Shown: in pieces, positions 16,960 through 30,504 of the stretch
Layout: every line of letters begins with the position of its first letter
Numbering within the stretch: the stretch's first letter is position 1
Assembly (NCBI GenBank): GCA_937998305.1
Contig: CALLDL010000043.1
Coordinates: 1-47,640, forward strand
DNA: 47,640 bases
Reading direction: 5' to 3'
From: an uncultured Desulfobacterales bacterium
GTDB taxonomy: Bacteria > Desulfobacterota > Desulfobacteria > Desulfobacterales > UBA11574
Translations under genes and position numbers: made by a program
Notes under the pieces: model-generated
Database searches by the model: none
The model's input: the letters and a program-made list of their open reading frames with translations, nothing else
What the model was told of the DNA's origin: nothing

Positions 16960-18573
16960 TCAATAAAGACGCGTTATCTCATCCACTTCAAAACTGGGCC
17001 AAGCTGCTGGTCCAGCCTTGCTCATGGCTTCGACCCCACGACCGGCTTCCATTACCTCGCCGATGCGGGCAATATCGATTCCAGCGTCCCGAATGCTGTC
17101 CAAAATCTTTTCGGTTTCATTTTTACGAGAACAAATGAGAAGGCTTCCGGAGCCAATCAATCCCATGGGATCAATACCAAGCAAGGTGCATATCTTTTCG
17201 GTTTGCGGAAAGACCGGGATACGGTCCATGTTCACCCTGATTCGATGTTTACCGGCGATGCTCAGTTCCATGAGGGCAGTGGCCAATCCTCCTTCTGTAA
17301 TATCGTGCATTGCACTGACTCCTCCACAATCGCGAGCGATTTGCGCTTCCTCTAAAATACTGATGGAAAAGAGAAACTGTTTACATGTTTCAATGTCGGA
17401 TTCCGACATCCCCAGAACTCTTAGCCGCTCTCCAAACTCCCTGGCAATGATGGCGGTTCCTTCAACTGCAACAGATTTGGTCAATAAAACGTTGTCTCCC
17501 GGCTTTATGTTCCGTTTATCAATCAGGCGGTTTTTTGTCACTGTTCCGGCAAGCATTCCGGTGATAACAGGCCTTGTAACAGCATCGGTGATCTCTGTGT
17601 GACCGCCGCATAGCGTGATACTCCACCGGCGACAAACCGATTCGAGTTCATGCATGACCTGGCGGATGAAGGATGCCGTAACACCGGATGGAAACAACAG
17701 GGTGGTCAAAAACCATCTGGGGATGGCTCCTGTGGTGGCAATATCGTTGGCATTGATGAGAACCGCATAATGCCCTATGGCGTCTGTGGCAAAAGTAATG
17801 GGATCTGATTTAATAACAAGGACTTCTTCTTCATCAATATCCACCGCAGCCGCATCTTCACCCACACCGGCATTGATAAGGACTGAAGGATCATGAAAAT
17901 CGAACCCGTCCAAAAAGTTTTCAAGCAGATCATTGGGCAATTTGCCCGGTGAAAGGGGCAGCCCCAAACGGACGATATTTTTAATCTCTTCCAAACTCGA
18001 GACGATAAAGTCGCTTTCAACCTTTCTGGTACCGGATACCGTTCCATAATCCAGAAACGCCGTCATACACCCTGCTGTTTGTCCTGCCTGAATGTCGAAA
18101 ACAAAGTCACCCACCATCAATATCTGTTTTACATCGACCTTCAAGGTTTCGGCTGCCAGTATAATCCCGTCGCCACTTGGTTTCAGCCGGACGGGTGTTT
18201 CCCTGGAAACAATGACATCAAAACAAGAAATATCGATAGCTTCAAAATTTTGCAGGGCCCGTTCTACACTTGAAAGGGTATTTCGGGTAATGATGCCAAT
18301 GCCGATGCCCTTTGAACGAAGAAAATAGATCAGTTTTTGTGCCCCGATGTTGGGCTCTGAGTTGACTGCCGCTTTTTTTTCAAAATGCTCCAGTTGCTTT
18401 AAGGCTTCATTGCGCTGAGAGAGGATGGGAAGATCTTCTATGAATTCAAGTATAGGGACATCGGCAGGGCAACCGATGGTTTCTTTTAAACGAGGAAAAT
18501 TCAATGCCCCGGGTTTTGTCAGAGTGCCGTCAAAATCGAACAGAACGGCTTTAATGTAAAATGACCGATTCAT
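16960..18573 (-). CDS. Fusion of HAD phosphatase and AIR-synthase/HypE-like domain
   Basis: 537 aa. Residues 1-205 are a HAD hydrolase: motif I VLFDFDGTLT, IITRNTLSS, and motif IV MVGDFVFDIQAG, as in phosphoglycolate phosphatase. Residues 230-530 are an AIR synthase-related (PurM/HypE/SelD fold) domain: AGVGEDAAAVDID, NANDIATTGAIP, LCGGHTEIT, then AMHDITEGGLATALMEL. The AIRS half should bind ATP, but its substrate is not identified. It is the middle gene of an operon with GDPD (21-bp gap) and asparaginase-like (27-bp gap). Confidence 0.88.
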   Translation of the reverse strand: MNRSFYIKAVLFDFDGTLTKPGALNFPRLKETIGCPADVPILEFIEDLPILSQRNEALKQLEHFEKKAAVNSEPNIGAQKLIYFLRSKGIGIGIITRNTLSSVERALQNFEAIDISCFDVIVSRETPVRLKPSGDGIILAAETLKVDVKQILMVGDFVFDIQAGQTAGCMTAFLDYGTVSGTRKVESDFIVSSLEEIKNIVRLGLPLSPGKLPNDLLENFLDGFDFHDPSVLINAGVGEDAAAVDIDEEEVLVIKSDPITFATDAIGHYAVLINANDIATTGAIPRWFLTTLLFPSGVTASFIRQVMHELESVCRRWSITLCGGHTEITDAVTRPVITGMLAGTVTKNRLIDKRNIKPGDNVLLTKSVAVEGTAIIAREFGERLRVLGMSESDIETCKQFLFSISILEEAQIARDCGGVSAMHDITEGGLATALMELSIAGKHRIRVNMDRIPVFPQTEKICTLLGIDPMGLIGSGSLLICSRKNETEKILDSIRDAGIDIARIGEVMEAGRGVEAMSKAGPAAWPSFEVDEITRLY

Positions 18574-28998: not shown

Positions 28999-29568
28999 TT
29001 ACTCTCCGGGCCGTGGTCTTTGAATCAGATCGTGAAAAAAATGCAAGATATCAGGGTGGGCCCAGTCTCGCGGGCCGATAATTTTTTTGACGAGTATTCC
29101 ATCTTTGTCGATGATAAAGCTCTCAGGGACTCCGGTGGTCCTATAAGATATTCTGATAGTTCCGGCAGAATCGATCAAAGCAGGGAAAGTGAGTTTGTGT
29201 TTTTTCATGAACGGGGTCACAGCCTTTAGTCCCAAGGAATCAATACTGACTGCCAGAATCTCAAAATTTTCACCTTTGAATTTTTGGTAAAGCTTTTCCA
29301 TTGAGGGCATTTCATCTACACAGGGAGGACACCAAGTGGCCCAAATATTAACGAGAACTACTTTGCCTCTGTAGTCAGACAGGCTGACCATTTTTCCATT
29401 GATACCGGGGAATGTGAAATCAGGTGCAGGAAGTCCAACCTCTATCGGTACTTGCTTTACAGATTTATTATATGACCTATTTCGATTCAGCAACAAAAGG
29501 ACCAACAAGCCTGTGATCATCAAAAAAATGAGAATAGCAGGGCGATAGTCAATCTTTTTTTCTTGCAT
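28999..29568 (-). CDS. TlpA-family thioredoxin-like disulfide reductase
   Basis: 189 aa from the ATG at 29566-29568 (the frame is open further, to 29652). One N-terminal membrane anchor (AILIFLMITGLLVLLLL) precedes a periplasmic thioredoxin fold with the active site NIWATWCPPCVDEMPSM, the cis-Pro loop TTGVPESFIIDKDG and LAVSIDS. It would reduce disulfides on periplasmic clients. It lies downstream of the CueP selenoprotein candidate on the same strand, 131 bp away, and a reductase is a sensible partner for a Sec/Cys protein. Confidence 0.9.
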   Translation of the reverse strand: MQEKKIDYRPAILIFLMITGLLVLLLLNRNRSYNKSVKQVPIEVGLPAPDFTFPGINGKMVSLSDYRGKVVLVNIWATWCPPCVDEMPSMEKLYQKFKGENFEILAVSIDSLGLKAVTPFMKKHKLTFPALIDSAGTIRISYRTTGVPESFIIDKDGILVKKIIGPRDWAHPDILHFFHDLIQRPRPGE

Positions 29569-29699
29569 ATCTATAATCGAAATCGGAAATACAATAAGTC
29601 TCCGGGAATAAATTATAATACGGAGTCCATTCACCTTCTGGAAAGAGCACATCCATCCACTTAAGGATACGGCTTTTGTTCTATTCCTTTAACCCTGTT

Positions 29700-30245
29700 T
29701 TATTGCAATCGAAACGTGGTTATACAGGTTTTGCTGTCATCAAACGTTTTTATTATACCTTTGGCTGTTCGATCAAGACCTTGAACTCTCAGGCCGATCT
29801 TACGGTTTCTAGGAAGCCAGATTTCAAAAAAACCGTTTTGCAAGGTGACAATAGTTTTATCGACCAGGGCATTTCCATCTTGGTCAACAGCTTTTACATA
29901 AAACTCTTTCTCGGGCAATTCCCCCTGACAGGAGGACATGTAATGAATTGTTCACCTATGCGTCCTGTTTATATAGGGAGCCACAGCGACCAACATTTTC
30001 TCTTCTGGAAGCGGAATCCTTTTAACTTTATCTTTAGAGAATTTAAACACCACTTCCCGAGGGGTGACGAAGCTCTTGATCTCCTTTTTGGACCATTTCC
30101 ATTCGTTGGCGATTGCCATAGCTTGAATGGCATCAGCGTTATTCAATATAGCTTCATCCGATTTTTCATCGCTTTGGAGTGTGCACACTGGAAACAGCCA
30201 GCTTATTCCAAGAAAGAGAATAAAGGATAGTACTATAGATTTCAT
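29700..30245 (-). CDS. cueP: CueP-family periplasmic copper protein, candidate selenoprotein (Sec98)
   Basis: Two open frames on the minus strand are really one. The first (97 codons) ends ...VAVAPYINRTHR at a TGA (29952-29954). The same frame resumes as TIHYMSSCQGEL and continues to ITTFRLQ. Together they make 181 aa, the usual CueP size, with signal peptide MKSIVLSFILFLGISWLFPV. In CueP proteins this junction reads ...APYVNETHPC-x7-CQGEL. Here the TGA replaces exactly the first Cys of the C-x7-C pair. A SECIS-like hairpin lies just 3' of it (29916-29940). GGAGG precedes the ATG. CueP binds copper in the periplasm and depends on thiol redox partners. A nonsense mutation is the alternative. 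Confidence 0.82.
29916..29940 (-). promoter_or_regulatory. Bacterial SECIS-like hairpin after the in-frame TGA
   Basis: On the mRNA, TCCTCC-TGTCA-GGGGGA folds into a 6-bp stem with a 5-nt loop, extendable by a few pairs past single bulges. The loop starts 21 nt after the TGA and has G at its second position. This meets the usual bacterial SECIS rules (loop 16-37 nt from UGA, G among the first two loop bases). Confidence 0.7.
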
Positions 30246-30504
30246 TTATTTCCTCCATAACTTACACTCATTTGTCCTTCCCACGGTTGTGAATCTAACC
30301 CGGAAAGCATATGATTTTGGAGTTACAATCTGTAATTCCGCTCAACCTTAACCACACTATAACATATAAAAACGATATATTGCAGTCTTAATTTATGATT
30401 CCGTGCCTATATCATAATTTCCCAAAAATTCATGGCTTCTAACCGAAATCAAAGTCGTGCTTTCTTACCAAACGTACATTCTCACCGATTGCATATACCC
30501 CAAA

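Follow-up and report, generated by a model that had tools for sequence, protein, structure and literature searches.

In Salmonella CueP, a cluster of Cys and His residues forms the copper site (PMC7558416), Cys104 is required for the protein's effect on copper resistance, and ScsB and ScsC pass Cu(I) to it (PMC13201067); a Cu(II) reductase activity has also been proposed (PMC8966772), each point as given in these papers. The gene discussed here lies on a stretch of 47,640 nucleotides from an uncultured Desulfobacterales bacterium – the window, meaning the whole of the DNA analysed. With Salmonella CueP (structure 4gqz; families PF21172 and NF038094) its product shares the predicted fold, the Cys-x7-Cys spacing, the third Cys and the His residues, but it differs in having a candidate selenocysteine (Sec) codon at the first Cys and in scoring under the cut-off of the narrower family model NF038095.

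Known or predicted bacterial selenoproteins with roles in metal handling belong to other families: the table of a 2026 review (PMC13188914) includes the SO_0444 Cu/Zn efflux transporter, a CopZ-family 2Fe-2S protein, a mercuric transport protein and a cation ATPase. In these, as in the putative seleno-CueP, Sec stands at a Cys of a metal-handling protein, but the families are different ones. That table, which covers 119 prokaryotic selenoprotein families, and the review's text contain no CueP, PF21172 or NF038094. A full-text search for CueP together with selenocysteine or selenoprotein returned only an unrelated match (on hydroxyapatites), supplementary tables – such as the candidates of PMC8318568 – falling outside its scope, so that an earlier mention there is possible. 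Within these limits, the remark in an earlier note on this DNA, whose author was aware of no described seleno-CueP, still holds, and the protein looks like a member of a known family in selenoprotein form, described nowhere in the literature searched.

Read through its one in-frame TGA, the gene forms a continuous frame of 181 codons plus stop, preceded by an intact ribosome-binding site, just as the earlier note had it (Table 1); under the ordinary code it reads as a 97-residue frame. As judged from sequence comparison, the UGA at codon 98 very probably encodes Sec, and the product would then be CueP, a periplasmic metal-binding protein, in selenoprotein form.

Table 1. Features of the cueP locus, in coordinates of the window
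Feature	Position	Strand	Remarks
TlpA/ResA-like redoxin with WCPPC	28999..29652	(-)	likely start 29568; next gene downstream of cueP
seleno-CueP gene (predicted)	29700..30245	(-)	181 codons (codon 98 being TGA) and stop; ATG 30245-30243, TAA 29702-29700
Cys174 codon	29724..29726	(-)	third conserved Cys
SECIS-like hairpin	29920..29936	(-)	TCCTCC-TGTCA-GGGGGA; begins 15 nt after TGA
Cys106 codon	29928..29930	(-)	TGT; its bases open the hairpin loop; TGT in 26/26 TGA forms
His101 codon	29943..29945	(-)	invariant in 32-row alignment A2; possible metal ligand
In-frame TGA, codon 98	29952..29954	(-)	read 29954-29952; sole in-frame TGA; predicted Sec; first conserved Cys of CueP
His96 codon	29958..29960	(-)	invariant in 32-row alignment A2; possible metal ligand
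Putative export signal	30180..30245	(-)	hydrophobic N-terminus, by inspection; end approximate
Ribosome-binding site	30252..30256	(-)	GGAGG, 6 nt 5' of ATG

Membership of the CueP family is clear for the read-through protein, which scores 115.7 bits (1.7e-33; cut-off 27) against the Pfam model PF21172 and 137.6 bits (2.4e-40; cut-off 60) against NF038094; with the exception model NF038095, for CueP metallochaperones in the narrower sense, it reaches 103.2 bits, below the curated cut-off of 195. At a threshold of 1e-3 no NCBIfam model beyond these two CueP models matches, and the protein therefore belongs to none of the selenoprotein families modelled in NCBIfam. Its sequence matches the solved structure 4gqz at 4.3e-23, and a structure prediction (pLDDT 90.2) found 4gqz with a Foldseek E-value of 1.7e-15 and a TM-score of up to 0.86 on the target, so that a CueP fold is predicted. 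In the 4gqz alignment codon 98 stands opposite the Cys of RTHPC, with the next conserved Cys eight residues on, which bears out the proposal that the TGA falls on a conserved Cys with the C-x7-C spacing preserved. All three conserved Cys positions of CueP are thus present, two as Cys codons and the first replaced by TGA.

Whether relatives carry TGA or a Cys codon at this position – a comparison that the earlier note had called for – was followed through three genome searches, covering 96 close genomes (the bacterium's own included), 389 of the class and 395 of the phylum. Among the close genomes, cueP occurs in 8, all with TGA, the seven other than its own encoding proteins of 45-80% identity; in the class it occurs in 12 genomes as 13 copies, every one with TGA; and in the phylum in 7, with TGA in 6 and without it in 1. 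Pooled, the searches comprise 17 different genomes, of which 16 (17 copies, 13 family labels) have TGA at codon 98, while all copies have TGT or TGC at the other two Cys positions. The sole genome with a Cys form, G419, has TGT at codon 98.

A pattern search, run separately over 84,980 named species genomes, yielded 32 cueP loci, one of which (L056) was left out of the codon count as its match does not span codon 98. TGA is found in 20 of the 31 others and TGC or TGT in 11; this set overlaps with the 17 genomes, several loci being the same gene under two names, and in the set of 26 TGA and 12 Cys sequences used below such duplicates are counted once. TGA is thus common among relatives and does not stand against a background of Cys alone. 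All 20 named TGA carriers are metagenome assemblies. The titles of TGA carriers refer to Desulfobacterales, Desulfobacteraceae, Desulfobulbaceae, Desulfatiglandales, Desulfohalobiaceae, Syntrophaceae, Syntrophus, Deltaproteobacteria and, once, 'Proteobacteria', and those of Cys forms to Bacteroidetes, Ignavibacteria(e), Kapaibacterium, Izimaplasma, Ornithinimicrobium, one Syntrophobacterales and one Deltaproteobacteria. Cys codons are also present in CueP genes on named plasmids of Deinococcus, Shewanella, Exiguobacterium and Corynebacterium (4 of the 22 records found). In the loci examined, TGA at codon 98 is exchanged with Cys codons only.

These counts bear on one rival explanation, namely that the TGA is a nonsense mutation in a decaying cueP whose second half goes untranslated. 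In its favour are the failure to find selB in the draft genome and a TAG upstream of the TGA in a distant relative (L044, the same gene as L024). Yet 16 genomes, under 13 different family labels, retain the TGA, and each of them aligns without leaving the frame; with 16 of the 17 genomes sharing it, it is no private mutation. Furthermore, dN is lower than dS on either side of the TGA in all six sequence pairs compared, the ratios lying at roughly 0.1-0.45; between the window and L026, dN/dS is 0.149/1.03 before the TGA and 0.121/0.65 after it. Selection is thus purifying on both sides, and as dN stays below dS 3' of the TGA, the second half is under selection at the protein level, in agreement with the earlier description of the C-terminal half as intact. 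On TGA conservation and selection, decay was rejected and is extremely improbable. Selenocysteine at codon 98, put forward from the outset in preference to a nonsense mutation, is backed by the TGA in relatives together with the Sec genes, the conserved hairpin and a sister pair of Cys and Sec forms, which are taken up below.

In bacteria, the element that directs Sec insertion (SECIS) is a hairpin just downstream of the UGA with a G in the first positions of its loop. The window has such a hairpin, and its position and loop G agree with this rule: the six pairs described earlier are present, with the loop UGUCA following after 21 nt and G as its second base, although the same bases could alternatively form seven pairs with a GUC loop. 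By folding energy alone the hairpin is not significant, its z-score of -0.49 being ordinary: of 200 shuffled sequences, 55 fold equally well or better. Synonymous codon choices, for their part, reach six pairs in some 5.7% of trials on the window's sequence (2.7% when the GU loop is included). For these two reasons, the signal lies in the conservation of the hairpin across relatives, which are not independent of one another. Six pairs are formed in 23 of the 26 distinct TGA sequences and five in the other 3; of the 12 distinct Cys sequences, two (L028 and L036) form six pairs and 10 at most four, and in the four plasmid genes no more than three of the six can pair. The exact combination of TGA and hairpin occurs once in the bacterium's own genome, at cueP. 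An Rfam scan of the window returned one tRNA and nothing else.

Covariation in the stem points the same way: 98.4% of cells are paired, and both sides have changed in 5 cells, at two of the seven pairs, four pairs never varying. Of 500 shuffles none reached the observed values for paired cells, changed cells, pair types or score, and 34 did so for the number of changed pairs – counts that are not probabilities, because the shuffles ignore relatedness – and slid registers score lower. In L026 and L041 a U-G pair has become G-C, changing Ser105 and Gly108 to Ala together, while L025 has the Gly108 change alone, with a mismatch in the stem; these changes rest on few, related sequences. Ala108 by itself was rejected as a hairpin-linked change, being found also in L025 with its mismatch and in the Cys forms L050 and L083. 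The Cys106 codon is TGT in 26 of 26 TGA forms versus 6 of 12 Cys forms; tallied over those 26 TGA forms, the Cys174 codon is TGT in 14.

The machinery for Sec was another point that the earlier note had singled out, naming selA, selB, selC and selD. Three of the four are present in the bacterium's own genome, a draft of 3.35 Mb that is 88.6% complete: selA over the cut-off (608.8 bits), a tRNA-Sec gene (selC; 75.4 bits) with the anticodon TCA (UCA), and selD. A selB over the cut-off was not found in this draft; three of four relatives of the same genus have one. The selD gene itself has an in-frame TGA, in the motif KTCG-TGA-AAKI, at what we take to be the Sec position of SelD. It resembles cueP in this TGA, and in the stretch that follows CCC and GGG flank a GGUC loop; SelD, unlike CueP, is a recognised selenoprotein of selenium metabolism. 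Across the 17 cueP genomes, selA is found in 14, selB in 15, tRNA-Sec in 12 and selD over the cut-off in 13, the best copy of selD carrying a TGA in all 13. Seven of the cueP genomes combine a completeness of 90% or more with a contamination of 5% or less, and each of them has all four genes; six are TGA carriers and the seventh is G419. As this Cys-form genome has the full set, a genome can possess the machinery without having the Sec form.

A second rival explanation accepts read-through but has the UGA read as some other amino acid, for example as Cys or Trp by a suppressor tRNA. It could draw on the parts of the Sec machinery that are missing from some carrier drafts, but the genomes with such gaps (G000, G001, G005, G317, G337 and G730) are all under 90% complete, whereas the four Sec genes are found in all six of the more complete, little-contaminated carriers. 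The tie between the SECIS-like hairpin and the TGA forms also argues against it, as do the exchange of TGA with Cys codons only in the loci examined and the use of TGA as the stop of 7 of the 22 long ORFs in the window, on which TGA as a genome-wide sense codon was rejected. Decoding as another amino acid is accordingly very improbable, albeit less so than decay. Between these two in plausibility, and likewise very improbable, is a selenium-dependent switch, in which the 97-residue product formed at low selenium would be functional as well. Such a product might be expected, as termination at UGA generally competes with Sec insertion, but it would be without Sec98, His101, Cys106 and Cys174, and there is no sign of a separate function for it.

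On a tree of 38 sequences the Sec and Cys labels require at least four changes (4-5 in bootstrap trees), of which the well-supported branches alone force two; the deep branches are weakly supported, and the tree neither dates nor roots the origin of Sec. The Cys form L028 is sister to the Sec form L035 (support 100/95) and has an intact hairpin, which fits a recent change from Sec to Cys that left the hairpin as a relic. This natural pair would allow the effect of Se in place of S on copper affinity and redox behaviour to be tested directly.

As to function, SelB and tRNA-Sec would decode UGA98 under the guidance of the hairpin that begins 15 nt after it, and the protein, with its hydrophobic N-terminus, would be exported. 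Sec98, Cys106, Cys174 and the two conserved His residues could then form the metal and redox site, for which Salmonella CueP uses Cys and His. Most likely, the selenolate would offer Cu(I), should the metal be copper, a ligand and redox partner that is soft and reacts fast, and a Se-S bond formed with Cys106 might be reduced, cycle after cycle, by the neighbouring TlpA/ResA-like redoxin.

A redoxin of this kind adjoins cueP in 5 of the 32 loci – the window, L025, L026, L029 and L033 (convergent) – three of the five being identified by Pfam (L029 and L033 among them) and L025 and L026 by eye; another redoxin-type frame lies upstream of cueP in L034 (by Pfam) and L037 (by eye). A conserved operon was considered and rejected, as clustering of neighbours across the 32 loci gave clusters of only 3-4 loci; the filter used there left out the frames nearest cueP, and the pairing with TlpA emerged from listing immediate neighbours. 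On the Corynebacterium comes plasmid pCETAM (L097), a Cys-CueP lies near genes for a copper ATPase, a multicopper oxidase, TlpA and CcdA, which extends the TlpA neighbourhood to a distant phylum.

Copper as the metal is suggested by the family and by the annotated copper genes that adjoin the four plasmid Cys forms (from four phyla; 4 of the 22 records found). The genes directly adjoining the TGA forms, mostly read by eye, included no recognised copper gene. In the Cys loci L049 and L053 a heavy-metal P-type ATPase adjoins cueP, but it was set aside as evidence for copper, as the L049 pump, partly scanned, scores best with Zn/Cd pumps; the metal may not be copper throughout the CueP family. 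The fullest version of the proposal – that relatives of sulfate reducers possess a periplasmic metallochaperone, seleno-CueP, whose selenolate is both a direct Cu(I) ligand and an electron donor and which works with a TlpA-like reductase, and that the RNA signal for Sec has left its mark on the protein itself – is put forward tentatively, with the balance tipped somewhat against it; its last part stems from the co-occurrence of Ala105 and Ala108 in the two sequences in which U-G has become G-C.

If Sec at codon 98 is correct, one more family would join the predicted selenoproteins, and a copper protein with a solved relative would have Sec at its metal site. Annotation is affected as well, since the ordinary code reduces the window's gene to a 97-residue frame.

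Some minor observations concern the same genomes. One of them, G337, has two different predicted seleno-CueP copies (G337:C132 and G337:C67; L073 and L078), both with TGA. L044 (6040-6060; L024 being CP070697.1, Desulfobacterales bin589) has TAG where its sister L078 has Gln, and the frame continues open to either side, as would follow from a nonsense mutation, an assembly error or a second recoded stop; in the 17-genome set, the cueP copy with a TAG upstream of codon 98, besides its TGA, is that of G076. Short SelB-like frames of about 330-530 aa, matching only the first 260-360 positions of SelB, lie beside a longer SelB in several genomes (G002, G004, G047, G083, G180, G288, G419, G520, G527, G759 and others). 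Finally, in a 537-aa frame at positions 16960-18573 (-) of the window a HAD hydrolase is fused to an AIR-synthase-related (SelD-like) module, and frames of similar length that weakly match selD are present in several relatives.
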